Below, piece by piece: positions 43,778 to 63,018 of a stretch of DNA of 64,000 nucleotides. The notes under the pieces are model-generated. The model searched no databases. It saw only the letters and a list, made by a program, of their open reading frames with translations, and had not been told where the DNA came from. This DNA is from Winogradskyella costae (GTDB taxonomy: Bacteria; Bacteroidota; Bacteroidia; Flavobacteriales; Flavobacteriaceae). The number at the start of each line of letters is the position of its first letter. The first letter of the stretch is position 1. The position numbers and the translations under genes are program-made. The stretch lies in assembly GCF_013403865.1 (NCBI RefSeq), contig NZ_JABFDK010000003.1:124001-188000 (forward strand), read 5' to 3'.

Positions 43778-43884
43778 TGTCACTTCGAGTGAAATTCTTT
43801 TTTTTCGAATTTTGTATCGAGAAGTTCTTTAGTACAAATAGTTCTCGATACAAATTTCCTAAGGCAAATTCACTCGAACTGACG
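43778..43884. repeat. Large palindrome made of two opposed family B repeats
   Basis: TGTCACTTCGAGTGAA and TTTGTATCGAGAA (43811-43823) are followed by GTTCTCGATACAAAT (43841-43855) and CACTCGAACTGACG (43871-43884). The two halves are inverted copies of the family B ends. Confidence 0.8.
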
Positions 43885-50244: not shown

Positions 50245-51039
50245 TTAAATCACCGCGATGCATTCCATGGCTTGTGCTGTTTTTAAAATCCCCAACGCGT
50301 TATGCTGCTGTTTTAGATATGTGATGCCTAACCAGATGGTTTGTGCCACATGTGTTGGTGTGTTATTTGTATTTGGACTTTGCAATTGTAGACTGATATT
50401 GTGATGTTCTATTTTACATAATAACGGTTGACTATGTACAGTGACACCTAAGGCGTTGTCATTTAGGTATTCTGTAATATATTCATTTTTATTGGGTTGC
50501 CATGCGCTATTTGAAACGGTACTTAAGGCTGCTGTTAATTGAAAATGTGTCGCGTTTTCTGGGATTTGGTTATGGTTATACTGTTCGCTTTTAGGGATAT
50601 TGATTGTGATGATGCTGCGGTTGGTGTTTGAATTCACCACTGCTTTTGCGGTATAGATTTGCTGAAATGGAAGGTCTTTTTTGAGTGGAAACCCGATTAT
50701 AGCGTTCGGATTATTAAACAGATTGGCCTCTCGTTCTCCAAGGGCACCACTCCCCTTTTGGATGACTTTACGGCAACGGCCCGTTAACCGACTTGCCATA
50801 TACGTATCTTGAAATGCTTTACCTGTAGCTCCTAAGCCTCGTCTTATGGCTTTAGATAGTTGGGTTGCAGCTGTGAACTCTTGATTATTACCCTTCACGT
50901 TTACAAAGGCAGGATCTGTATTAATACGTTCACTAGATGGGCCTACGGCTTTGCGCACCACATATTCTCCATTGAGTTGGTAATAGCATCGGCCTTGTAA
51001 TGTGCCTTTGAATTTGAATATGCCTTCTTGTTTAGGCAT
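50245..51039 (-). CDS. Hypothetical protein
   Basis: The 264-residue product has no signal peptide or membrane segment. The N-terminal half is basic and Gly-rich (MPKQEGIFKFKGTLQGRCYYQ, then RGLGATGKAFQDTYMASRLT). The C-terminal half looks beta-rich. It reads as a real gene, but I recognise no family. It is a lone minus-strand gene. Confidence 0.6.
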   Translation of the reverse strand: MPKQEGIFKFKGTLQGRCYYQLNGEYVVRKAVGPSSERINTDPAFVNVKGNNQEFTAATQLSKAIRRGLGATGKAFQDTYMASRLTGRCRKVIQKGSGALGEREANLFNNPNAIIGFPLKKDLPFQQIYTAKAVVNSNTNRSIITINIPKSEQYNHNQIPENATHFQLTAALSTVSNSAWQPNKNEYITEYLNDNALGVTVHSQPLLCKIEHHNISLQLQSPNTNNTPTHVAQTIWLGITYLKQQHNALGILKTAQAMECIAVI

Positions 51040-51384
51040 TTGATTTTGTGTTGGTTATGGTGTTAAAGTTAGTAAAAAAAAGTTATCTAATGCTGTTAAT
51101 TTGTTTAAAGTTAGGGTTTTAGGTGTGTGATTGTAAATCCTCCACAGGATAATTGCATTTTGATAGCTATCGTTTTCGCCAAAATGATATGAGGCCGGAC
51201 TAAACATTGGAACTCTCGGTGTATATGGATCATAAAGTTAAGAACCAAAACGTTTATGAAGACTTATGATATACCATCGCTTTTAGGACTTATTTAACGG
51301 GTTAATGCTTCGTGTGTTACAGTGATTTTTGTAACTTATGGTTTATAATTTGTAATCCTTATTAATCTTAAAAATTAACGTATT
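51040..51384. other. Intergenic region with a self-complementary segment
   Basis: This 345-base gap shows no convincing ORF. Near 51162-51200, CATTTTG and CAAAATG are inverted around GATAGCTATC, itself a palindrome, so a branched structure could form. No known RNA was recognised. Confidence 0.5.
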
Positions 51385-51771
51385 ATGGACTATTATTTTA
51401 GCAAAATCTTAAAAGGTAATTTTAACGATACCGTAGAAAAGGTTACCGCAGCACTTAAAACGGAACAGTTTGGTGTGTTAACGGAAATCGATATTAAAGA
51501 CACGCTTAAAAAGAAGCTGGATGTCAATTTTAATAATTATAAAATCTTAGGGGCTTGTAATCCTCCGTATGCTCATAAAGCTTTATTAGCGGAGAATAAA
51601 ATTGGCACCATGCTGCCTTGTAATGTTATTGTTCAGGAATTAGATTCTGGTGATATTGAAGTGGCTGCTGTTAACCCTATGGCTTCTATGCAAGCGGTGG
51701 AAAATGATGATTTAAAAGTTATTGCTGAGGAGATTACTTTGAAGCTTAAGGGAGTTGTTGAGGGGTTGTAG
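51385..51771 (+). CDS. DUF302 domain-containing protein
   Basis: The 128-residue protein fits the DUF302 family: DYYFSKILKGNFNDTVEKVT at the start, LTEIDIKDTLKKKLDVNF, then ILGACNPPYAHKALLAENKIG and VIVQELDSGDIEVAAVNP. The family has a two-layer fold with unknown function; it is found in sulphur- or stress-related contexts. The gene stands alone and is followed by a heptamer array. Confidence 0.9.
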   Translation: MDYYFSKILKGNFNDTVEKVTAALKTEQFGVLTEIDIKDTLKKKLDVNFNNYKILGACNPPYAHKALLAENKIGTMLPCNVIVQELDSGDIEVAAVNPMASMQAVENDDLKVIAEEITLKLKGVVEGL

Positions 51772-51772
51772 A

Positions 51773-51884
51773 AGTTTGAAGTGTAAAGTTGGAAGTGTAA
51801 AGTGTTAAGTGTGGAGTTTGAAGTGTTCAGTGTTCAGTGTTCAGTGTTCAGTTTTCAGTTTTCAGTGTTCAGTGTAAAGTATTA
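51773..51884. repeat. Heptamer array of sixteen 7-bp units
   Basis: The sequence divides exactly into sixteen 7-base units of the form AGTnTnn. Seven units in a row are AGTGTTC or AGTTTTC (from 51822), flanked by AGTGTAA, AGTTTGA and similar. No intervening spacers occur, so it is not a CRISPR. It begins 2 bases after the DUF302 stop. Confidence 0.9.
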
Positions 51885-51937
51885 ATTTTAAGGTGGTTGG
51901 TTGGTAGTTGGTGGTGGTTTTTTGTAAGCGACTGCGA

Positions 51938-52555
51938 TTAGTAATACAATCTAAAATCCAATACTTTGCAGGCGTTATAATGTCTTTGGTGCAATTCTTC
52001 TACCACAGCAAACATATCATCATCTTCTTTAAATAAATTAAAGAAGGCTTCATCAAGTTTTGTGCTCGCTATGCCATTATAGGGATGACCATAGCCAGAA
52101 ATCGCTTTTGCTCCCGTGATATCTAAAAATAATTGTGCCTCTTCTTCATCTAAATCTAGAAGTTTGGCATTTGAAAAATGTAAAATCTTACCGTCTAATC
52201 GGCCTTCAAAAAGTTCTGCGATTTCCTGTAAACTATAGTAGTAGTCATTTAAACAAATGGTATTGGCTTCTCCCTTAATCACCAAATAGATGATTTCATA
52301 ATCCTTAAAGTTATGATCATCTAATACCAGTGCGTTTAAGCTATCTTCTAATCCTTCAATGGTGTCACACGTTTTATAGATACTTGCTATGCCATAGTTG
52401 AGCGCCAATTGCTCTAAGTTGTGTTGTGCTTCAGTTACCGTGTTGGCGTCTACATCATCTACCCCTTCTAAGCAATAAATAAAGTAATCTGTGTCTGTAA
52501 TCTGTTCTTGTGGTACTTGTGGTCTTTTTTCTAGCAAGCTTCTTAATTTATGCAA
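51938..52555 (-). CDS. Conserved-looking protein, DUF6642-like
   Basis: The 205-residue product is acidic and soluble-looking. Its alternating alpha/beta pattern (TDYFIYCLEGVDD, YEIIYLVIKGEAN, AKAISGYGHPYNG) resembles a CHAT/caspase-like or related fold used in DUF6642 proteins, which are known mainly from Flavobacteriaceae. His and Cys residues at SGYGHP and CKVLDF cannot be assigned as catalytic. It precedes the large A/T-rich region on the minus strand. Confidence 0.6.
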   Translation of the reverse strand: MHKLRSLLEKRPQVPQEQITDTDYFIYCLEGVDDVDANTVTEAQHNLEQLALNYGIASIYKTCDTIEGLEDSLNALVLDDHNFKDYEIIYLVIKGEANTICLNDYYYSLQEIAELFEGRLDGKILHFSNAKLLDLDEEEAQLFLDITGAKAISGYGHPYNGIASTKLDEAFFNLFKEDDDMFAVVEELHQRHYNACKVLDFRLYY

Positions 52556-53147
52556 TGTTTGTACAGTGCGAAATTAATAGAATGCTTTTAATTTTTTTAG
52601 TGGTTTGGGGTGAAATTTTGTTACGGATTATATCCATTTGCTTCTGAAAAAACAAGTTACTGCAGCTTTTGGTGTTACCAATACTATGTCTTTGTTTGAG
52701 ACGTTGAAGGAACGGTGTGGTGTTTATCAGTAGCACATTGTTTTCGGTGATGTATTATTTTCTTGTGTTTATATGATGCGCTTAATCAATTCTTTAAAAT
52801 AGTATATGGTTTTGGAAACAATCCTTTACGCTCGATTTTTAGCGAAATAATATTTGCTAATAACTTTTGTAATTGCATATCGATTGTAAACTATTTGTTG
52901 CAAAATTATTTATAAATACTATAAGGTATAAAAGATTTTATTATTTTAGAATTGTAAAAATTGTCTAATTGTTTTACCAAAAAAATTAAAGTATTATTAT
53001 TAAAAAAAGCTAATAGAAAACTATTAATTTTATAAATACAAATTAGGAATATATTGTAAAAAAAAATATTAAACTTTCAACATAGTTTGTTATTAGAAAT
53101 ACAAATAATAAATCTGGATTTATGTCCTACAAAATAGAATATTTTTA
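52556..53147. other. A/T-rich gap before the 973-residue gene
   Basis: This 592-base stretch shows no convincing gene. It is visibly richer in A and T than most of the window, with homopolymer runs. A minus-strand ORF at 52548-52736 lacks gene-like features. The base composition and isolated gene downstream suggest an insertion zone. Confidence 0.55.
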
Positions 53148-56069
53148 ATGAATAAAGTAGAATTAATAAGACAAATTAGATTTGGGTTTGAGCAACTGAA
53201 AAGTGATAATGGAACTTCTGATTTTGAACATATATGTAGGTTTTTTGCAAGAAGTAGAATTGTTCAAAATGTAATTCCAGCCACAGGTCCAGTTCAATCT
53301 GGTGGAGATCAAGGCAGAGATTTTGAGACTTTTCATTCTTATTTAATAGACAATAACGATAAAAATTTTTCTTTAGCTTACTCAAAGGCTCCTATTGTAT
53401 TCGCATGTTCTCTAGAAAAAAATCCACTCAAGAAAAATGGTAAAATTGATAAGGATGTAAAAACGATATTGGAGCCAAACTTAAGTATTGAACGTATTTA
53501 TTTTTTTAGCGGTATAGATATTCCGGTAGGTCAAAGACATAAAAAAGAAAAAGAAATTAAGATAAATTATAATGTTGACTTAGAAATTATAGATGCACAA
53601 GCCTTATCAGAACATTTATCTGATTCAGACCTATTCTGGGTTGCTAATCAGTATTTGAAAATACCTAATGATTTTTTCCCTAGAGTAACTGAAACTAATT
53701 GGTATAATAATATTTATAAAGAATATAAAACTAGAGAAGTAAAAATAACTTTTGAAGAATTTTCAGATATAAAATCTGCAATTAGACATATTTATAAAGA
53801 TAAGGTTCTAAAAATTGATTTGAATTTTTGGTTAGAACTACTTGATTTGTTTATTTCTGATTCTAGTCCAAGAATTTTAAAGAGGAAAGCGATTTATGAG
53901 AAGTTTGTAACAAAATTAATGGGTCAGAATAATATTAATAATTTAGAAATCATTGTTAGAGATTATTTTAGCGACATTAGGGATTATCCTGATCCAGCAT
54001 CCATGGAAGATGCACAAATATTACTATCTTTTGTTAAAAGCTCAAAATTGATTATTGGAAATGAAATTAGTAATGATGAAATAGATAAATATGCGAATGA
54101 ATTAAACGTCCTATTAGAAAGTGAATTCAATAATACAAATAGTAACAATAAGAAATCTTCTATAATTGAGATTCAAGCTAATATTATTTTAAATGATTTC
54201 GATAATGCAGTTATTAAATATCTTGAAAAATTAGAAGAAATTTTTGAATATGTTCAAGATGCACCTTTTTATCCTTTAGAACGACTTTCAAATAGGATTT
54301 TAGAATCTATTAAGCTTAATCTAGAACTTAAAAATGATACTAGCCTACTTGAAAGTTTCTCTGAAAAATTAGATGGCATATTGGCTGAAAGGTATGGTGC
54401 ATATAGGGCTGGAGAGAACATCAGAGATAGAGTCCAATTATATCTCAAAGCAAATAAAACGGTCAAGGCAATAACCCTTTTGCATCAACTTAAAATGAAA
54501 TGGTTTTCAAATGAAACTTTGAGAGGTTCAATTTTGACGTCTATATTATTATCTGATTGCTATTCAAAATTAAATATGGAATATGCGAGTAAATATTATA
54601 GTATGATTGCTGCAAATATGGCCATAGTTTACAAAGGATCTGCTGATGTATTTGATTTACTACCTTCTGCTTTAAAAAGAACAGCTGATTCCTCTTATAA
54701 TAGTGGGTCTTGGGTTAATTATTTAGATTTAATTGACTTAACAATAAATTCATATCATTTTATAGAAAAGGACTTTGACATCTATAAGGATGACGAAACT
54801 TCAACTCTAATTTATTATCCTGCATTGATTAAACTCTTTTCAAATAAATTTAACCTAACAATAGAAAATTATTTAGATTTTAAATTTAAAAAGCTAGGTT
54901 ATATAGGCGATGAAATTATAGAGTTTTATGAAAAAATAAATGTAGAAGGTAAAGAACTATTTAAAAAAAGCAATATTGTCAGTAGCCTATCAGAACAGAT
55001 TAGAGGTATACCATTTAATGATATAGGGGAATTAAGGGTAATTTCGTTTGAAGCTTTTGGCATTAAATGGAATATTGAATTTAAAAATGATTATATAACT
55101 AATTCTATGGCAGAACAACTTGTCGCTATGCTTCAAGTTTTTCTAGTAGAATTAATAGATGAAGAACTTTTTTTGATAAAGTCAAATGTTCTTGTTAGAT
55201 TCAAAAAAACTAAAAACGATCAACCTCTTTTTACAGAAAAACCATCAAATGAACAAATAATATGGGAAGCCGAAATTCCGTTTTATCAAGGAAATGAATT
55301 AAATAAAATTGAAGAGTGTCAGTATTTTTATTCTGCGTTAATTGGTGCTATTTTAAGACAAATTAGTTTACTCCCCAATAATGAATTTAAAGAAATTATA
55401 GAAAATAAGTTTGGGCAGGGCTTATTTAATAAGGTGACTTTTGGTAATACTTATAATTACTTATATAGAGAATTTATTAGTGAGAATGGTTTTAACGAAT
55501 CCCAAAGAACAAATTTTAGTAATGTTAACATAACTTTAGAATATAGTCTTCCAGAAAACACAAAAGTTCCATGGCCTACTGGTTTATCTAAAACATATTC
55601 AAAAGAAGAGAACCTAACGTACATAAAGAAGAGGTTAGCCTTTACTGCACCTTTAGAAATAACTCTAGAAAAATTAAAAAACAATGATGATTTCATCTTA
55701 ATTATAAATGAGTTTAGAGAGAATTGGTCAGATTGGCATATTTATTTAGCTATAGTAAACATTGTAATTAACTATAAGCTTCAAAAGATTGGTTTAAAAT
55801 TGGATAACCCAGATAAACCCCATGAATTTCAAAAAAAGTATTTAGAATATTCAAGGAAAAAAGAAAGTGAATGGATGATAGAATTACCAATGGGTATTTT
55901 TTCTAAGGAGAATATTGAAAATTACATGTTAAGAACAGGCGTTGTCAGTGTCCTTCCTTCTTATGGACTTCAGAATTTTTCATGTACACCAAATTTAGTA
56001 GCTATTAAAGATTTATTAATCGAACGCTTTAATTTTCTAAAAGATGGAAAGGATCTAACTATTTTTTAA
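53148..56069 (+). CDS. Large protein with restriction-endonuclease-like N-terminus, candidate defence protein
   Basis: The 973-residue protein has an N-terminal domain (about 1-175) that looks like a PD-(D/E)xK or Mrr-type nuclease: FEHIC (Glu27), GPVQSGGDQGRDFETF (Asp54, Asp58) and VFACSLEKNPLKK (Lys91), a pattern seen at the front of large defence proteins. The rest (about 200-970) is mostly helical with TPR-like stretches, for example KAITLLHQLKMKWF. No Walker A motif is present. It is isolated, A/T-rich and next to repeats, consistent with horizontal transfer. Its nuclease assignment is by motif only. Confidence 0.65.
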   Translation: MNKVELIRQIRFGFEQLKSDNGTSDFEHICRFFARSRIVQNVIPATGPVQSGGDQGRDFETFHSYLIDNNDKNFSLAYSKAPIVFACSLEKNPLKKNGKIDKDVKTILEPNLSIERIYFFSGIDIPVGQRHKKEKEIKINYNVDLEIIDAQALSEHLSDSDLFWVANQYLKIPNDFFPRVTETNWYNNIYKEYKTREVKITFEEFSDIKSAIRHIYKDKVLKIDLNFWLELLDLFISDSSPRILKRKAIYEKFVTKLMGQNNINNLEIIVRDYFSDIRDYPDPASMEDAQILLSFVKSSKLIIGNEISNDEIDKYANELNVLLESEFNNTNSNNKKSSIIEIQANIILNDFDNAVIKYLEKLEEIFEYVQDAPFYPLERLSNRILESIKLNLELKNDTSLLESFSEKLDGILAERYGAYRAGENIRDRVQLYLKANKTVKAITLLHQLKMKWFSNETLRGSILTSILLSDCYSKLNMEYASKYYSMIAANMAIVYKGSADVFDLLPSALKRTADSSYNSGSWVNYLDLIDLTINSYHFIEKDFDIYKDDETSTLIYYPALIKLFSNKFNLTIENYLDFKFKKLGYIGDEIIEFYEKINVEGKELFKKSNIVSSLSEQIRGIPFNDIGELRVISFEAFGIKWNIEFKNDYITNSMAEQLVAMLQVFLVELIDEELFLIKSNVLVRFKKTKNDQPLFTEKPSNEQIIWEAEIPFYQGNELNKIEECQYFYSALIGAILRQISLLPNNEFKEIIENKFGQGLFNKVTFGNTYNYLYREFISENGFNESQRTNFSNVNITLEYSLPENTKVPWPTGLSKTYSKEENLTYIKKRLAFTAPLEITLEKLKNNDDFILIINEFRENWSDWHIYLAIVNIVINYKLQKIGLKLDNPDKPHEFQKKYLEYSRKKESEWMIELPMGIFSKENIENYMLRTGVVSVLPSYGLQNFSCTPNLVAIKDLLIERFNFLKDGKDLTIF

Positions 56070-56300
56070 AGGTTATTGTAATATTTAATTCCACATATAC
56101 TTTACATTATGCTCCTATCATCTCGTTATAAAAATTTTTGCAATACTTCCTATATTAAAATTCAAAAAATCGGATTTAATACCATCACTAAAAATGATTC
56201 CTTTTGTAGGCATATGGGATTCAATTTTTAAAGTGTTAGTAGTGTTTATTAAGCCGTAACCTATTATGTGAGTTCATTATTGGTTTCTATTTGATATAGT

Positions 56301-56325
56301 GGATTCCTGCCTTCGCAGGAATGAC
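56301..56325. repeat. Palindromic intergenic repeat, family A clean copy
   Basis: GGATTCCTGCCTTCGCAGGA followed by ATGAC is the clearest family A copy; TTCCTGC pairs with GCAGGAA. Confidence 0.85.
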
Positions 56326-56394
56326 AGATTTTCATTTGTAATACTATTTTCATTAATACTTCCAGTATTGTAATTCAAAAATGCTATTTATTTC

Positions 56395-56594
56395 GTTCTC
56401 GATACATTCTGACGAGAAATGATCGGGACACTCGTACTGACGATTGGTGTTTTAATGATTACTAAATTTTGTTATTGAGAGTTCTCGATACATTTCTTAA
56501 TGCTTCGTTGTACTTCTCATTAAGAAACACTCGAACTGACGTGAAGGTTCTCGATACATCCCGACCAGAAAAGGTCGGGACACGCGAACTGACG
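56395..56594. repeat. Cluster of three family B repeats
   Basis: Each unit starts GTTCTCGATACA and ends CACTCGAACTGACG (one with CACTCGTACTGACG, one with CACGCGAACTGACG). Two inner stem types occur: short TCCCGAC...GTCGGGA, and longer TTTCTTAA...TTAAGAAA. The ends sit at 56395/56442, 56481/56541 and 56547/56594. Confidence 0.9.
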
Positions 56595-56611
56595 GCTGGT
56601 TTTATAAACTC

Positions 56612-59600
56612 TTAAGGTTTCGACACCTTTAACTCACTCAACTTTCTTAAGCGCTCTAATTCAAAAATCAAGGCTAATTTATAAGCACTATCCCTAAAAC
56701 CTGCAAAGCGTCCGGATCCGCCACCATGACCATTTGCAAAGTCGGTTTTTAGTAAGAGGATGTTATCATCGGTTTTAGTCGCTCTTAGTTTTGCGACCAT
56801 TTTCGCTGGTTCCCAGTACCCTACTCTGGTATCGTTGAGTCCAGTGAAAAACAATAGATTAGGATAGTCTTGTGCTTTGATGTTGTCATAAGGACTGTAC
56901 GACTTGATGTATTGGTAAGCTTTTTTGTCTTTTGGGTTTCCCCATTCTTCAAATTCGCCAACGGTAAGCGGTAGGTGTTCATCTAACATGGTGTTAATGA
57001 CATCTACAAAAGGGACGTCTAAGATAACGGTGTTAAAAAGTTCTGGTCGCTCATTAATTACGGCTCCCATAAGTAAACCGCCTGCGCTTCCGCCTTGGGC
57101 TACAATGCTACCTTTGGCGGCATAATTTTCTGCGATGAGGTAGTCTGCACAAGCTATAAAATCGGTGAAGGTATTTTTCTTATTGAATAGTTTACCGTCT
57201 TCGTACCATTCGTTTCCTTTATCATTGCCACCTCTAACATGTGCAATGGCATAGACGTAACCTGCGTTAACCAACTGATGAACGGATGCGCCACCAGGAA
57301 TGCCTTGTCCGGAACCATAAGAACCATATGAGGTGAGGTAGACTTTGTGGTTTTTTCCTTTGTTGGTGCGCCATTTGTGTCGGATGAGCGTTAAGGGAAT
57401 TAGTTGTCCGTCTTTAGCGGTCACCCATTTGCGTTCTACCACATATTTGTAATACGGATGCGTAAGGGGTTTACTGTGTTGTTTTACCAGGCGTTTCTTT
57501 TTGGTGGCCATGTGGTATTTATAGGTGGTTGTTGGCGTTTCAAAGGAACTGTATGAAAACTGTAAACTGTCTGTGGCAAACTCTGGATTATAACCCATAC
57601 CGATGTTGTAAAAGTCTTCTTTGAATTTAATAATATGGCTTTTTTGTGTGGTTTGGTCAATGATTTTGAGTCGTGCTTGTGCGTTTTCTTTTTCATTAAT
57701 GACGACATACTTATCGAAGACCGCAAAATTTTGAATTAGCACGCCTTTTTGATGCGGTATGATATCGGTCCATGTTCCTGATTCGAGGTCATTAACAGGC
57801 ACAGTGGCTATTTTATAGTTGAGCGCGTTTTTATTGGTGAGGATATAGAATAGGTCCTTATGATGTGCGATGGCATAGATATGATTCGTTTCGCGTGGAC
57901 GGATGATTTTAAATTCGCCCATAGGGTTATCTGTTTTTAGATACCAATTTTCGGAAGACGTGCTACTTGATGTGTTTAAGAAAATATAGTCTTTAGATTT
58001 TGATTTGCCGATGGATACACTAAATTTTGGATCTTTTTCTTGGTAGATGATGGCATCGGTATTTGAATTGGTGCCTAAGATGTGACGTTTTACTTGAGAC
58101 GAACGGTAGGTGCCTTTTTCGACATCTACATATAAAAAGGCATTGTTATCTAACCAAACGGTGCCACCTACGCTATTAATAGAATCGTTTAAAAACATTT
58201 TGTTGCTAAGATCTTTTATTTTGAGCATGTAGGCATCTGTACCTGTGGTGTTCTCGTAAACGGTGATGAATTGATTGTTGGGACTTACCGAACCAGGACT
58301 AGCGGTGTAGTAGTCTTTCCCTTTAGCCATTTCATTGACATCTAATAAGACTTCGGTAAGGGTATCTTTGGCGAGGCTTTTTCTGTAATAGATGGGATAT
58401 TCATCATCTTCGGTATAGCTACTGTAATAGCTGTATCCATTTTTTTCAACAGGCAGTGAACTGGTATTCTTCTCGACGGTTTGTACCAAATTTTTGTAAA
58501 TAATACGTTGCGCTTTTTTGAGTGGGATGATATAGTTTTCGGTGTATTTGTTTTCTTCACGCAGGTACTCCATAATTGGTTGATTGTGTTGTGGAGCTTT
58601 GGTATCTTTTAGCCAAGCGTAATTATCGGTATAGGTTTCGCCATGGATTTTAAAACTAGAGCTTATGATATTAGCTTTAGGCTGTGGCATAGCATCATTA
58701 CGAATGTGTTTATCTCTAAATTGTTGTTCTAAAGGTTTTTCGAATTCCATATCCTCTCTAATGGCTGCATCAATGGTAGCTATTGGATTTTTGAGGGTGT
58801 AATTTTGCCAGTATGCCGTATCGTAGTCTAGTGGAAACTCGTATAAGTGATTGGACATGGTGTTAGCGAAATTATCTTCTTTAGGGAATTTCTTGACGTT
58901 TGTAGTGTTGATTTTAGAGGTCTTAAATTCGGATATTGCCGAATAATAGGTTGTGGTTTGGTTGGTACTGTCTTTATAGATGAATTCGTCTTCATGTCGC
59001 ATATTATCAATGTAATACGTTGCTCCTTCTTTCTTGAAGCGTACATCGAGTTTGTAATCGAAATGCTTGACTTGGTTGTATTTGTAGCCGCAGAAGTATT
59101 CTTTGAGTTCGTTAGGTACCATGCACTCGTAACGAACCACAGCGTAATTCTCTGGATTGATATAGATTTTACCTTTGAGTAATTTACGGTTGTTGGCCTT
59201 GCGCCATTGTTTACTACTTCTTTGGTTGGGAGACGCTAAATCATCAAGTTCGTCTTTAGTGGTTTTGGTTTGAAATTCTAAGACATATACCCAATTGCCT
59301 GAGTCGTCTAGTTCTTCGGAAATGGTATAGTTGAAATCGCGTGTTGCCTTTTTACCTAAAAAACTCTCTTGGTATTTTACGCGATTTCGGCCGAATAATC
59401 CTAAAGGACCACCTTCAATATTACCGTGAAAATCGCGCTTGCTCAAACTCGCACTAGATCTAGAATTTATAATGTTGACTTGTTCGTCTTTCAACGTTTT
59501 ATAGTGAAAATGAATACGATGTAAGGAGCTCGCATCGTAGCTAAAGGTACCAGCACTTACGGAAAAATCGTAAGGATTTTGGTAATCTCTCCATTTGAAC

Positions 59601-60151
59601 TTCTTTTTACGGTAAGGCGCTTCATAATACTCACAAGCGGCATCGGTATATTTGATGTATTCCCCATTTTCTTTCATGGTTTCTCGGTAATAGCCTGTTA
59701 TGAGGCTTGGAGTATTGGAGTAATTAGAGGGTATGTTTTTAATCACTTTTCTCAGTAACGACTTGGCGCTAGGTAGTTTTTCTTTTTTCTCTTCTACAAA
59801 GACTTCATCTAGAGACACAGATTCTGGAGTCATGTTAAAGGTGGTACCGTTTAGTGCTTTGAAATCTGAGATGTTAAGTTTTAAATCTTCAAAGCCTAAA
59901 TAGCTGATGGTAATGGTGTAGGTATCGTATTTTTTTGGAATGGTAATTTGAAATTTACCATCACCTTCTGTTACCGTACCTAAACCTACTTTATCTATTT
60001 TTAAATAGGCATAAGGCAATGGAGTGCCATCGGTTTTATCAACGACGGTGCCTTTGATTGTTTCTGATGACGTGGTGTTTGTTTGATTGTTTTGGGCTTT
60101 TGCAAAGGACATTATTAAGCATAGCAATAGTAAGAGCGGTTGAGTTGGCAT
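56612..60151 (-). CDS. Fusion of carboxypeptidase-regulatory-like domain and S9 oligopeptidase
   Basis: The 1179-residue protein has a signal peptide (MPTQPLLLLLCLIMSFAKA), a carboxypeptidase regulatory-like beta-sandwich domain (about 28-110; ETIKGTVVDKTDGTPLPYAY), a long region like Bacteroidota DUF5686-type outer-membrane proteins (about 125-480), then a complete S9A prolyl-oligopeptidase domain (about 490-1170). The catalytic triad is visible: Ser1022 (GGSAGG), Asp1107 and His1142 (ANGHGG). The S9 part resembles oligopeptidase B. The fusion of an envelope module with a peptidase is unusual; frame is open throughout. Confidence 0.85.
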   Translation of the reverse strand: MPTQPLLLLLCLIMSFAKAQNNQTNTTSSETIKGTVVDKTDGTPLPYAYLKIDKVGLGTVTEGDGKFQITIPKKYDTYTITISYLGFEDLKLNISDFKALNGTTFNMTPESVSLDEVFVEEKKEKLPSAKSLLRKVIKNIPSNYSNTPSLITGYYRETMKENGEYIKYTDAACEYYEAPYRKKKFKWRDYQNPYDFSVSAGTFSYDASSLHRIHFHYKTLKDEQVNIINSRSSASLSKRDFHGNIEGGPLGLFGRNRVKYQESFLGKKATRDFNYTISEELDDSGNWVYVLEFQTKTTKDELDDLASPNQRSSKQWRKANNRKLLKGKIYINPENYAVVRYECMVPNELKEYFCGYKYNQVKHFDYKLDVRFKKEGATYYIDNMRHEDEFIYKDSTNQTTTYYSAISEFKTSKINTTNVKKFPKEDNFANTMSNHLYEFPLDYDTAYWQNYTLKNPIATIDAAIREDMEFEKPLEQQFRDKHIRNDAMPQPKANIISSSFKIHGETYTDNYAWLKDTKAPQHNQPIMEYLREENKYTENYIIPLKKAQRIIYKNLVQTVEKNTSSLPVEKNGYSYYSSYTEDDEYPIYYRKSLAKDTLTEVLLDVNEMAKGKDYYTASPGSVSPNNQFITVYENTTGTDAYMLKIKDLSNKMFLNDSINSVGGTVWLDNNAFLYVDVEKGTYRSSQVKRHILGTNSNTDAIIYQEKDPKFSVSIGKSKSKDYIFLNTSSSTSSENWYLKTDNPMGEFKIIRPRETNHIYAIAHHKDLFYILTNKNALNYKIATVPVNDLESGTWTDIIPHQKGVLIQNFAVFDKYVVINEKENAQARLKIIDQTTQKSHIIKFKEDFYNIGMGYNPEFATDSLQFSYSSFETPTTTYKYHMATKKKRLVKQHSKPLTHPYYKYVVERKWVTAKDGQLIPLTLIRHKWRTNKGKNHKVYLTSYGSYGSGQGIPGGASVHQLVNAGYVYAIAHVRGGNDKGNEWYEDGKLFNKKNTFTDFIACADYLIAENYAAKGSIVAQGGSAGGLLMGAVINERPELFNTVILDVPFVDVINTMLDEHLPLTVGEFEEWGNPKDKKAYQYIKSYSPYDNIKAQDYPNLLFFTGLNDTRVGYWEPAKMVAKLRATKTDDNILLLKTDFANGHGGGSGRFAGFRDSAYKLALIFELERLRKLSELKVSKP

Positions 60152-60283
60152 GGATGATTGATTGTTTTTTGTTGATGATTGACTTACAAGGGTTTGATTT
60201 TGTAATAATAGGGTCTTAACATTGACCTTGGTTTACAAATAACATTTTTTTAGGAAAAAAAGTATGTTTTTGGTTGGGTTGTT

Positions 60284-60345
60284 AGACTAGGTTAGATTGT
60301 TAGACTAAGTTAGATTGTTGGATGATTAGATGATTAGATTTTTAG
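60284..60345. repeat. 18-bp-period tandem repeats, first block
   Basis: Units such as TTGTTAGACTAGGTTAGA are repeated with slight changes (TTGTTAGACTAAGTTAGA), then degenerate into GATGATTAGATGATTAGATT. The same series recurs at 60486-60536. Confidence 0.8.
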
Positions 60346-60348
60346 ATA

Positions 60349-60619
60349 GTTTTCGATACAGTTCTTAAGTCTCCGTTGCGCTTCGAATTAAGAACCACTC
60401 GAACTGACGGACGATTGCGGTTCTCGATACATCCCGACGAAATGGTCGGGATACTCGAACTGACGTCAAAGGTTTTGAGGTATTTGTTAGATTGTTAGAC
60501 TAGGTTAGATTGTTAGACTAAGTTAGATTGTTAGATCGTTCTCGATACAGTTCTTAAGTCGTCGTTGCACTTTGAATTAAAAAACACTCGAACTGACGGT
60601 TGGGACACTCGAACTGACG
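60349..60619. repeat. Second cluster of family B repeats
   Basis: Units at 60349-60409, 60420-60465 and 60538-60598 carry the GTTCTCGATACA-type left end and CACTCGAACTGACG-type right end, and a partial right half lies at 60602-60619. The first and third units have a long inner stem (GTTCTTAAGTC); the second has the TCCCGAC...GTCGGGA-like stem. The 18-bp repeats at 60486-60536 lie between them. Confidence 0.88.
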
Positions 60620-60665
60620 TTAATGGTTTTGAAGTATACAGATGAGATCTATGTTCTATATGACA

Positions 60666-61592
60666 TTACTCTTTTAACAAGTCTACCACCTTTTGTATAT
60701 TTTCTTTTGATGCTAAATTGGTACCGCCTGTCATGGTGGTTGCAACACCGCAGATAACACCCCATTTTAGAATGTTGGCAGGAGATAAGTTTTGTGATAT
60801 GGCATAAATTAAGCCCGCTACCATACTATCGCCAGCACCAATGGTACTCTTTACTTTTACGGAAGGTGTATTTTGGTATACGATACCGTTTGCTGAGGCT
60901 AAAAAAGCACCACGAGCACCTAAGGAGACCACCACATATTGTGCCTGTTTGTTATGAATGAGTTGCATGGCAAATGCCTCTTGTTCGGTTTTTGTTAAAA
61001 AGTCTTTGCCAGCTAATTGGGCGAGTTCCCCTTGGTTGGGTTTCATTAGAAATACCGGTTTTTGGAGGCTTGCTTTTAAAGCTTCGCCAGAGGTATCTAC
61101 GATGATTTTGACGTTTTTAGCGGTGAGGCTATCTATGAGTTGGATGTAAAAGTCTGGTGCCATGGTATCTGGAACGCTACCACTCATAATAAGTATAGTA
61201 TCTTCTGTAACTAACTTATTTATAGTGCTTTTAAGGGTTTCTGTTTCAGTAGTACTTAAGCCTTGTCCTGGCATTCCGAAACGGTATTGTAATTCGGTTT
61301 TAGCTTCTACAACTGCTAGGTTTTCACGTGTCCACGCTTCTACAGGTATTGGTGTGATGTTGAGTTGTTCTTCTTCTAATAAGCGTTTTAAGGTGTGGCC
61401 TGTATCGCCACCGCAGGTAAACATACAGTTATTTTTAACGCCTAAAGTATGCAGGACTCTTGAAATATTCACTCCGCCTCCACCCGCTTGAAATTCGATA
61501 GCGTGGCATTTTAGTTTTTGCTCAGGGACTAAATGGTTTATGGTGGCGCTTTTGTCTAATGCTGGATTTATGGTGAGGGTAATGATGTTCAT
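60666..61592 (-). CDS. PfkB-family sugar-phosphate kinase, 1-phosphofructokinase type
   Basis: The 308-residue protein is a ribokinase/PfkB-superfamily enzyme: NPALDKSATI at the start, GGGGVNISRVLHTLG (substrate loop), and the ATP-site GAGDSMVAG with catalytic Asp255. The best subgroup match is 1-phosphofructokinase or 6-phosphofructokinase II (PfkB), which phosphorylate fructose phosphates. No PTS fructose genes are nearby, so PfkB of glycolysis is possible. The substrate is not resolved. Confidence 0.88.
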   Translation of the reverse strand: MNIITLTINPALDKSATINHLVPEQKLKCHAIEFQAGGGGVNISRVLHTLGVKNNCMFTCGGDTGHTLKRLLEEEQLNITPIPVEAWTRENLAVVEAKTELQYRFGMPGQGLSTTETETLKSTINKLVTEDTILIMSGSVPDTMAPDFYIQLIDSLTAKNVKIIVDTSGEALKASLQKPVFLMKPNQGELAQLAGKDFLTKTEQEAFAMQLIHNKQAQYVVVSLGARGAFLASANGIVYQNTPSVKVKSTIGAGDSMVAGLIYAISQNLSPANILKWGVICGVATTMTGGTNLASKENIQKVVDLLKE

Positions 61593-61634
61593 GGCTGTGG
61601 TATGTTGCTTTTTAGTTTATGCTTTTTACTATGG

Positions 61635-61680
61635 TATCTCGATACATCCCGACGAAATGGTTGGGACACTCCAACTGACG
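61635..61680. repeat. Family B repeat between pfkB-like and histidine kinase genes
   Basis: TATCTCGATACATCCCGACG at the left and GGGACACTCCAACTGACG at the right are a degenerate short-stem family B unit. Confidence 0.8.
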
Positions 61681-61689
61681 TCAACGGTT

Positions 61690-63018
61690 TTATTGCGACC
61701 CAGATTTAGGTAAGGTAAAATAAAAGGTGGTGCCACTACCCTCTTCGCTTTCTAGCCATATGCTGCCTTTGTAAAAGGTGATGATTTTTTTTACGATGGA
61801 GAGTCCGATGCCCGAAGACGAGCTGCTACTTTCTAATTTGGTAAAGACCTTGAAGATTCTTTCGAAATAATTGGGTTTAATACCCACACCGTTGTCTTTT
61901 ACAAAGAACTGATACAGATCGCCCTGCTCTGTATAGCCGATTTCTATGGAGCCTTGGTCTTTATCACTATACTTAATGGCATTTTGAATAAGGTTCTGGA
62001 AGACTTGTTTGAACCTCCAGGTATTGCCATATATGTTTGGAAGGTTGTCTTGTACGGTAATGCTGATGTGTGTAGGGATGAGCAACGTTTGTAAAACCTC
62101 TGTGATGAGTGTATTAAAGTTGACCTGTTTGTCTTGTTGTTCTAATTTATCGATGGTAGAGTAATCTAGAATACCTTTGATGAGGAAGTCCATTTTCTCA
62201 ACATTAAACAACACCTGATGCAAGGGTATTAGGTCTTTTTCATTAAAGGCGGCTTTATGATCGTCCATAAACCAACTGATTAAAGTGTGGATATTGATGA
62301 GTGGAGCTTTAAGATCGTGAGACACTACGTGGGCGTATTCGTTAAGCTCTTCGTTTTGCAAGGATAAGTTTTGTAGGAGCTCTTCCTTTTTCTTTTCCTG
62401 TACTTTGATGTGTTCTTCATTCTCTTTACGCTTAATGACATTGACGAGCATATTGGCGTATACAAAAAGAATGTCTTTTTCGTTTTCGGTGTATTTGTTT
62501 AGCTTTTTAACGGCATCGAAACCAATGAAGCCGATGAGTTCTCCGTTTTTAATTTTTGGGATGGTGATAAGACTTTTAATGCCTTGTGGCTCTAGTACGG
62601 CTCTTAGGCCTAGTTCGCCATCTTCGGGTAACTGACTGACATCTTCTACATAAAAAGCGTCTCCTTTTTTGTGTGCTTGGATCCATTGCGGAATGTAATC
62701 GATGGGCACGTTTTGAAGGTTCTGAATTTCGGGCTCTATATCTGCAGCGCACCACTCGTAGGTATTAGAGGTGGTGTTGTCTTTAAAATTATAGGTGAAA
62801 ATATAGCTTCTATCGGATTCTACGAATTCTCCAATTTGTTGCAGTGAGGTGCGGATTAGTGTATCGACATCTGATAAATCGGCATTGATATAGGTGGTAG
62901 AAATGCTTATGAGTAAGTCTTGAAAGCGCAGCTGTCTTTCTATAATTTTATCTTTTTCTAATTGTGTTTGCTTTTCTGTTTCAGAACAGGTACTATATTT
63001 GGGGTCTTTTTGGTTCAT
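61690..63018 (-). CDS. GAF-domain sensor histidine kinase
   Basis: The 442-residue protein has no transmembrane segment. A GAF-like sensory domain (about 35-195) is followed by a coiled coil (about 198-228), HisKA with the phosphorylated His234 (YAHVVSHDLKAPL) and a HATPase domain with N-box QNLIQNAIKYSD, G1 KDNGVGI and G2 SSSGIGLSIV. It should be a soluble kinase of a two-component system. No response regulator is adjacent. The repeat downstream separates it from the PfkB gene. Confidence 0.92.
   Translation of the reverse strand: MNQKDPKYSTCSETEKQTQLEKDKIIERQLRFQDLLISISTTYINADLSDVDTLIRTSLQQIGEFVESDRSYIFTYNFKDNTTSNTYEWCAADIEPEIQNLQNVPIDYIPQWIQAHKKGDAFYVEDVSQLPEDGELGLRAVLEPQGIKSLITIPKIKNGELIGFIGFDAVKKLNKYTENEKDILFVYANMLVNVIKRKENEEHIKVQEKKKEELLQNLSLQNEELNEYAHVVSHDLKAPLINIHTLISWFMDDHKAAFNEKDLIPLHQVLFNVEKMDFLIKGILDYSTIDKLEQQDKQVNFNTLITEVLQTLLIPTHISITVQDNLPNIYGNTWRFKQVFQNLIQNAIKYSDKDQGSIEIGYTEQGDLYQFFVKDNGVGIKPNYFERIFKVFTKLESSSSSSGIGLSIVKKIITFYKGSIWLESEEGSGTTFYFTLPKSGSQ

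Follow-up and report, generated by a model that had tools for sequence, protein, structure and literature searches.

A solitary Winogradskyella costae gene in a variable defence slot: a candidate nuclease sensor-effector without an ATPase

The question raised by the locus described here is whether one solitary gene could encode a complete defence protein. The gene lies in a stretch of 64,000 nucleotides from Winogradskyella costae (contig NZ_JABFDK010000003.1, positions 124,001 to 188,000), referred to as the window, whose own positions are used throughout. From the letters alone, the original prediction had taken its 973-residue product for an isolated candidate defence protein with a nuclease-like N-terminus and a long helical rest lacking any NTPase motif, possibly a self-contained sensor-effector, in what looked like accessory DNA. 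The analysis reported here led to the reading that the protein is probably a single-gene, ATPase-free nuclease sensor-effector acting against phages or plasmids, with a probability of about 0.6. This reading is supported, by prediction and comparison, by the nuclease fold of the effector, the NTPase-free body, the exchangeability of the effector, the defence location and the solitary nature of the gene.

The open reading frame (ORF) at 53148-56069 (+) was found to be intact, with an ATG start and exactly the coordinates first noted. The two motifs singled out earlier were both present at the N-terminus of the 973-aa protein, GGDQGRD at residues 52-58 and VFACSLEK at residues 84-91. The start codon was backed by the nearest relative, a protein from a Flavobacteriales metagenome-assembled genome (L018, 55% identity), as the N-termini align from residue 1 of the L018 protein. 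Isolation of the gene was likewise evident, as 592 bp separate it from its left-hand neighbour, the DUF6642 gene, and 542 bp from the peptidase gene to its right; the sole ORF in the left gap was a mechanical one of 62 aa (52548-52736, -).

Searches of the 973-aa protein against PADLOC, NCBIfam and PDB sequences gave no match, and Pfam returned just two chance-level rows (E 0.46 and 7.5). One weak match (E 0.0095) was obtained in PHROGs. The phage records searched contained no match, the viral structure library gave none at E <= 0.001, and no viral contig was confirmed in a scan that was keyed on peptides of a single protein and hence of low reach.

Relatives were nevertheless numerous. With tblastn, 16 plasmid records were matched, 7 of them predicted to be conjugative; in 10 the match extended over 80% or more of the query, including L011 and L013, where it comprised the body alone. 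Seven plasmid proteins from this plain tblastn search were aligned with the window protein to give 8 rows (A1). Subsequently, 84,980 species genomes were scanned with a search keyed on two conserved A1 peptides (ATGPV... and D[QG]G[RK]D...), which confirmed 134 relatives. The best 80 of the 134 were retained, and 76 of these 80 had no stop codon inside the match. Given the 134 confirmed relatives and the 76/80 stop-free matches, the ORF is far beyond chance.

A 63-row alignment of the family served as input for AlphaFold2 (confidence values of the full model are given in Table 1). Residues 1-172 followed the order helix, helix, strand, strand, strand, helix, strand, as in the PD-(D/E)xK core, the core elements of the full model being H23-37, E42-44, E59-61, E83-88, H99-108 and E116-121. 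The N-terminal domain modelled alone reached a pLDDT of 83. In structural comparison by VIA, its top match was Avs4 (8dgf, residues 2-183), with Z 10.8, 151 aligned residues of 181 and 4.0 A, followed by AspBHI (Z 9.8), MspJI (9.4 and 9.0), FokI (7.6), and R.BspD6I and N.BspD6I (7.3-7.4). The best 11 rows were nucleases or restriction/nicking enzymes, all of which we take to be PD-(D/E)xK enzymes, while Shedu, at Z 6.3, was within the range of unrelated rows. When the N-terminal part was compared inside the full model, MspJI gave Z 10.2 over 143 residues (model residues 2-171) at 3.7 A. The nuclease-like N-terminus suggested from motifs was thus recovered as a predicted nuclease-like fold with Avs4, AspBHI and MspJI as its nearest structures, and the non-nuclease fold that would have spoken against it did not appear. 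Residues 1-172 are accordingly described here as a predicted PD-(D/E)xK nuclease.

Conservation was concentrated in a small number of residues. E27, T46, G47, P48, G53, D54, D58 and K99 were invariant in 63/63 rows, and E60 and D103 were each kept in 62/63. With the exception of D103, the same residues (E27, T46, G47, P48, G53, D54, D58, E60 and K99) were invariant in all 8 rows of A1. E27 and K99 lie outside the scan patterns, so their invariance is free of any selection effect. A conserved acid at the second strand was present in all sets, as D58 (63/63) and E60 (62/63), in 8/8 rows of A1 and in 6/6 relatives of a second group that carry the same nuclease on a divergent body (architecture C, described below). 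These six proteins kept E27, D54, D58, E60, S88, K99 and D103. At the end of the third strand, residue 88 was S or T in 63/63 rows and residue 90 was mostly Q (42 rows) or E (13), followed by D (3), N (3), K (1) and T (1); in the architecture-C proteins, residue 90 was K in 5 of 6.

Asp58 and Lys91 had been proposed as the key residues. The first of these held, with D in 63/63 rows, while Lys91 was rejected as the catalytic lysine, K being found there in 35/63 rows compared with 63/63 at K99. From the alignment, we infer that the catalytic lysine has been relocated to K99, where the next helix begins, and E60 possibly stands in for the strand-3 acid. Relocation of this lysine occurs in the PD-(D/E)xK superfamily. 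The window protein is put forward as having a PD-(D/E)xK fold and as probably working like enzymes of that superfamily, without being a canonical member of it.

The rest of the protein is a predominantly helical body (Table 1). VIA rows for its TPR-like superhelix spanned residues 177-600, and the first-ranked Foldseek match of the full model was a STAND protein with TPR (6mfv, E 1.9e-3). The earlier statement that the helical rest lacks an NTPase motif was borne out: a Walker-A-like motif was present in 0/63 family members, and the window protein matched no P-loop family in Pfam, NCBIfam or PADLOC. The Pfam scan of the window protein also gave no modified-base-reading domain. Mean column entropy was 2.2-3.0 per 40-residue block in the C-terminal helical region. 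Over the whole body it averaged 2.57, against 1.83 in the nuclease domain, which indicates a better-conserved nuclease, in part perhaps as an effect of the keyed scan.

Separate profiles were made for the nuclease domain and for the body, the proteins under test being left out of the body profile, and they revealed that the two parts are not always joined to each other. Architecture A, that of the window protein, combines the GGDQGRD-type nuclease with the TPR-like body. Proteins of architecture B, namely L011, L012, L013, G076 and G933, matched the body profile (E 3e-92 to 2e-159) and gave no match to that of the nuclease. The Cap4_nuclease model matched the front part above the Pfam cut-off in L012 and G076 and just below it in L013 and G933, while the sole match of the front part of L011 was a weak one to the PADLOC model LmuA (E 2e-4). 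L014-L017, L128 and L151 make up architecture C, in which the nuclease (E 8e-16 to 4e-23) is joined to a divergent body; these bodies still matched part of the body profile (E 1e-8 to 3e-17). Since the same body occurs with a Cap4/DUF4297-type nuclease and the same nuclease occurs on a divergent body, effector and sensor are modular. Effector exchange on a shared receptor is typical of immune sensor-effectors. As a separate observation, one architecture-C gene (L016:2148-5563) is carried by a conjugative Agrobacterium plasmid, next to TniQ/TniB/Mu-type transposase genes, and is possibly Tn7-like cargo.

The position of the gene was compared across the genus. The prolyl-oligopeptidase gene to its right was found at E <= 1e-100 in 9 of 68 genus genomes, own included. 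In the closest sister genome, G005, which is 97% identical over the peptidase gene, the alignment with the window stops at 52634 and resumes at 56269; the corresponding limits in a second sister, G033, are 52633 and 56481. Comparison of the junctions placed the divergence of the window from about 52620. Identity of the DUF6642 protein was 94% in G005 and 92% in G033.

In place of the 973-aa gene, G005 carries a CBASS system with a cyclase (5e-70), an E1-E2 protein with a JAB part (2e-271) and a match to the NucC effector model (7e-95), together with a second cyclase-like gene (3e-31), a WYL regulator and a DUF2779 protein. G033 carries a class II pAgo (pAgo_II 3e-256 and Aga 4e-85). Thus, in the stretches fetched, all three genomes with the DUF6642-peptidase linkage carry different cargo, that of G005 and of G033 being known defence systems. 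In G041, GajA (7e-284) and GajB (7e-234) of a Gabija system were found a few genes off, between orthologues of the window genes at 50245 and 47653; the DUF6642-peptidase linkage was not seen in that genome. The remaining five peptidase-bearing genomes had other surroundings in which no defence system was recognised by eye, their genes being unscanned. Within the 18-19 kb stretches, the DUF6642 gene stood beside the slot in G005, G033 and the window genome only, all three carrying an insert, and no exact empty site was present in the stretches of the eight other genomes with a peptidase match.

Two details of the sister cargoes were recorded. The CBASS locus of G005 (L118:5957-14428) has a fused E1-E2-JAB gene, and its second cyclase-like gene has an N-terminal extension. 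The partner of the G033 pAgo (L122:9760-12926) corresponds to the model 'Aga_Unknown'.

Neighbours of the homologues elsewhere were also considered. The Lamassu genes LmuA, LmuC and LmuB were located about 170 bp upstream of the homologue in L036, and IetA and IetS about 120 bp upstream in L055. Fifteen plasmid neighbourhoods were viewed. Single regions contained Shedu with a restriction endonuclease; ABC-three-component (ABC-3C) genes with a reverse transcriptase; a CHAT protein, a HEPN protein and a restriction endonuclease; AbiEi/AbiEii (AbiE); an ATP-binding protein with an S8 peptidase; a nucleotidyltransferase-HEPN protein; and DUF4433 with macro-domain genes, presumably DarT/DarG. HipA was present in three regions. 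Transposases, integrases and Tn7-like genes were also among the plasmid neighbours.

For the neighbour test, 13 of 20 loci and 13 of 20 same-contig controls were scanned; one of the 13 loci (L058) holds a broken homologue, and ORF calling was crude in GC-rich contigs. The 94 neighbour proteins of the loci matched 52 PADLOC families, compared with 29 for 109 control proteins. Among the matches listed, the families around the loci included LmuA, LmuB, IetA, IetS, AbiD, RmrA, ShosA, PDC-S39, PDC-M59A and a BrxH/DpdJ-like helicase, each of the PADLOC families being found in one member. The control matches listed comprised a type IIG restriction enzyme, DrmMI, PDC-M23B, PsyrT, SngC and mad2/mad3, as well as the helicase models BrxH, DpdF and HamB; most of them were taken as shared generic domains. 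The test is regarded as supportive and does not give a rate. As regards defence islands, the slot and some homologues adjoin known systems, and 6 of 15 plasmid regions showed no recognised defence gene.

A conserved operon partner was rejected, as the largest cluster of neighbours occurred in 5 of 80 loci. With a solitary ORF, no recurrent partner and no Walker A motif, the suggestion of a self-contained sensor-effector was supported, the body being a putative sensor.

By record titles, the relatives belong to Bacteroidota, Actinomycetota, Chloroflexota, Pseudomonadota, Acidobacteriota, candidate phyla and archaea (Methanosarcina, Methanosarcinales, Bathyarchaeota and Hodarchaeota), and full-length members to Bacteroidota, Actinomycetota, Pseudomonadota, Chloroflexota and archaea. 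Presence was sporadic. The gene was absent in 59/59 other genomes of the genus, and among 99 genomes including its own, only its own genome and G076 matched, the latter by the body alone. The body profile matched 3 of 395 genomes of the phylum, own included, the other two having architectures B and C. It matched 3 of 337 genomes in the class of a Mesorhizobium locus and 4 of 345 in the class of a Pedobacter locus (centre genome counted in each), two of the latter four being shared with the phylum scan. When the DNA of the Rahnella member (L090) was compared with 5,426 E. coli genomes by blastn, no match was obtained at that sensitivity. The GC content of the gene was below that of its flanks in 52 of the 62 loci having enough flank. 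Sporadic presence and lower GC together mark the gene as accessory, in agreement with the accessory DNA first proposed.

On the 63-row tree, phylum labels required 10 changes, the minimum possible, compared with a shuffled mean of 31.5. Rampant transfer between phyla is not supported by this clustering, which agrees better with an ancient spread followed by sporadic retention than with continual exchange. A housekeeping role with vertical inheritance had been named as the outcome contrary to a defence role; the sporadic presence (0/59 genus genomes) is not that of a housekeeping gene, and the clustering by phylum gives no evidence of rampant transfer. Two individual loci deserve mention. The Planosporangium genome G507, the source of L050, contains two diverged tandem copies of the body family (C4:42426-48129), and the Bradyrhizobium plasmid homologue at L003:6971-9915 is annotated as two overlapping ORFs with the nuclease and body parts separate, reflecting a split gene or a frameshift.

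Table 1. Features of the 973-aa gene and of the slot that holds it, in window positions.
Feature	Position	Strand	Basis
Whole gene, nuclease-helical sensor protein (candidate)	53148..56069	+	ORF, 80 loci of relatives, AlphaFold2 pLDDT 90.6, pTM 0.86
N-terminal effector domain, residues 1-181, predicted PD-(D/E)xK nuclease fold, core to ~172	53148..53690	+	VIA
Glu27, invariant, in helix 23-37 before the sheet	53226..53228	+	63/63; 6/6 architecture-C relatives
GGDQGRDFE, residues 52-60, with D54/D58/E60 as putative metal-binding acids	53301..53327	+	Conservation
Residues 88-90, end of third strand, (S/T)-x-(Q/E) replacing (D/E)-x-K	53409..53417	+	63-row alignment
Lys99, invariant, first residue of next helix, putative relocated catalytic lysine	53442..53444	+	63/63; 6/6 architecture C
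TPR-like helical superhelix, residues 185-617, putative sensor	53700..54998	+	AlphaFold2, Foldseek, VIA
Alpha/beta module, residues 629-711; no fold match claimed	55032..55280	+	DSSP on model
C-terminal helical region, residues 718-961, variable	55299..56030	+	DSSP on model
Left slot anchor, DUF6642 gene	51938..52555	-	Pfam E 7e-88
Right slot anchor, prolyl-oligopeptidase (S9) with CarboxypepD_reg-like N-terminus	56612..60151	-	Pfam
Inserted segment, approximate bounds, holding the 973-aa gene alone	52635..56268	.	Alignment with G005 and G033

The surroundings of the gene matched the A/T-rich gap beside repeat arrays described at the outset. GC was 0.27 at 53001-55000, in the gene, compared with 0.38-0.40 at 56001-63000 to its right, and tandem arrays were found on both sides, at 51767-51875 and 60279-60540. 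The left array, followed to 51891, consists of 7/14-bp units of the AGTGTTC / AGTGTAA type directly left of the DUF6642 gene; as its units are head-to-tail without spacers, it is unlike CRISPR. A dispersed repeat with the core TTCTCGATACA had 7 exact copies in the window, compared with 0.02 expected. Its repeats at 56396-56558, 60421-60549 and 43813-43852 are clustered on both sides of the prolyl-oligopeptidase gene, and those by the right side of the slot may aid exchange. At the ends of the insert, the sole direct repeat was a 7-bp match taken as chance, and no RNA element was found in 51000-57000 at Rfam thresholds.

Several observations weigh against reading the protein as a nuclease sensor-effector. 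Foldseek gave nothing at E <= 0.001, either for the N-terminal domain (best MspJI, E 0.096) or for the full model (best E 1.9e-3), and profiles of the N-terminal domain and of the body gave nothing meaningful against PDB sequences. VIA values under about Z 8 may reflect a common arrangement, 7 of 999 chains reaching 8 with the N-terminal domain. The acid-bearing residues 46-57 and 60-68 had pLDDT below 50 in the model of the domain alone; the same region was better in the full model, with block means of 63-76. As the Foldseek matches are weak, the case for the fold is made jointly by the AlphaFold topology, the VIA ranking and the residue pattern. Strand 3 lacks the canonical (D/E)xK, which is replaced by (S/T)x(Q/E) in the 63-row alignment; for the GGDxGxD stretch, selection accounts for part of the invariance seen in the 62 genome loci, since the genome scan was keyed on residues 45-61. 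On the side of genomic context, 6 of the 15 plasmid regions had no annotated gene recognised as defence (one of them lists two genes). The neighbour comparison is small, its controls also match defence models (type IIG, DrmMI, PsyrT and mad2/mad3), and its matches are tied to a given locus for L036, L055 and L025 alone. The tree carries no sign of rampant transfer between phyla. Activity, trigger and oligomeric state are inferred for all family members.

Among other explanations, a modification-dependent or type IV-like restriction enzyme is considered unlikely. Its body would read DNA (modified bases or ends), and its nuclease would cut without a protein trigger. AspBHI and MspJI are the nearest solved relatives after Avs4, the former being a modification-dependent restriction enzyme by its structure title and the latter also an enzyme of this kind; moreover, the gene is solitary, with no methyltransferase-like ORF noticed beside it. 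However, no known DNA-reader domain was found in the Pfam and PADLOC scans, the body is a predicted TPR-like superhelix, a fold that usually binds protein, and the occurrence of the same body with a Cap4-type nuclease fits a sensor better than the DNA-reading half of an enzyme. Also improbable is a role in anti-plasmid or inter-element competition, or as an addiction-like module of mobile elements, in place of anti-phage defence. The 16 matching plasmid records, with 7 predicted conjugative, would agree with it, as would the transposases, integrases and Tn7-like genes among the neighbours, but the window gene lies between genes whose linkage is kept by sister genomes, with CBASS or pAgo in the same slot there, its homologues adjoin Lamassu and IetAS, and no partner antitoxin recurs in the 80 loci. 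Lamassu and pAgo systems are reported to act on plasmids as well.

The replacement of the strand-3 (D/E)xK by (S/T)x(Q/E) could also indicate a catalytically dead or repurposed nuclease-fold regulator, whose N-terminal domain would bind DNA or protein without cutting. This is judged very unlikely given that E27, D54, D58 and K99 are invariant in 63/63 rows and in six divergent proteins, that residue 90 is K in 5 of these 6, and that some relatives have a Cap4-type nuclease in place of the domain. Proteins of signalling and assembly commonly have TPR-like bodies, and a housekeeping or cell-biology protein without an immune role might look similar in this respect; with the sporadic presence, the insertion in a defence slot and the adjoining defence operons, such a role is hardly credible.

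For a nuclease sensor-effector, the following course of events can be proposed. An N-terminal nuclease of the Avs4/MspJI type, with the acids E27, D54, D58 and E60 and the relocated lysine K99, is by prediction and comparison fused to the NTPase-free TPR-like superhelix with its alpha/beta module and helical tail. The body would keep the nuclease silent, probably as an oligomer. The trigger bound by the variable helical body would be a component of the invader, and most probably a phage protein as for DSR2 or Avs. Binding would bring the nucleases together, and DNA would be cut, either that of the invader or, as in Avs1-4, both genomes, so that infection is aborted. With no STAND ATPase, activation would be ATP-independent and driven solely by ligand binding. 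A more specific proposal, that this is an unnamed bacterial and archaeal family of ATPase-free pattern-recognition nucleases, in which a fast-evolving TPR-like receptor directly senses a phage component and, with no STAND-type ATP switch, releases a swappable N-terminal DNase of an Avs4/MspJI-like or a Cap4/DUF4297 type, with a relocated catalytic lysine, is put forward tentatively, at somewhat less than even odds.

When compared with known systems, the protein resembles Avs4 (AVAST type 4, 8dgf) in its N-terminal nuclease of the same fold, its best structural match, and in having an N-terminal effector, a long C-terminal part and a defence setting. It differs in that the family has no STAND ATPase between effector and sensor (Walker-A-like 0/63), that no PADLOC model is matched, and that it has 973 residues compared with 1534 in 8dgf_B. 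Avs proteins also carry a C-terminal repeat sensor; for the window protein a TPR-like superhelix is predicted, which may or may not be homologous to it. According to one report, phage packaging proteins are sensed by Avs1-4, whose nucleases then cut the genomes of both phage and host (PMC12931631). DSR2 is similar in layout, with an N-terminal effector and a middle and C-terminal sensor in one protein, no ATPase domain being named; it is described as a tetramer whose C-terminal sensor binds the phage tail tube protein and is thereby activated (PMC10981675). In contrast to DSR2, the effector here has a nuclease fold and is not an NADase, no SIR2 model is matched, and the bodies are likened by layout.

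AspBHI and MspJI share the catalytic-domain fold (Z 9.8 and 9.4), whereas the nuclease here is N-terminal on a TPR-like body, its lysine apparently lies at K99, and no DNA-reader domain was recognised. A link to Lamassu LmuA and CBASS Cap4 is provided by the architecture-B relatives, which carry a DUF4297-type nuclease (2/5 above the Pfam cut-off); the N-terminal domain of the window protein itself has no DUF4297/Cap4 match in Pfam or PADLOC, and no SMC-like or cyclase gene accompanies the 973-aa gene in the insert. Because the STAND ATPase of Avs and the SIR2 domain of DSR2 are absent, the family falls outside both, and it would work like them in outline, as an effector plus a repeat sensor.

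The family is not covered by any model of Pfam, NCBIfam or PADLOC, nor by a PDB sequence, and the literature searched, as far as its text was available, contained no description of it. Provisionally, the family is therefore regarded as undescribed in a literature taken without supplementary tables and mostly without subscription papers. In the DefensePredictor study, 42 systems were validated in E. coli, many with PD-(D/E)xK nucleases, and figure legends name TPR among the domains of validated or predicted systems (PMC13092281); a similar architecture may be among its tables.

One unannotated family joins the ideas of an Avs4-type nuclease effector, a DSR2-type sensor layout without an ATPase, and the exchange of effectors on one body. 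Within the genus, the slot from the DUF6642 gene to the prolyl-oligopeptidase gene can be used as a defence hotspot for mining. If the family defends, it would offer a simple one-gene system for studying how a helical receptor activates a nuclease without ATP hydrolysis, and it would give a role to 'hypothetical' proteins in many bacteria, some archaea and some conjugative plasmids.

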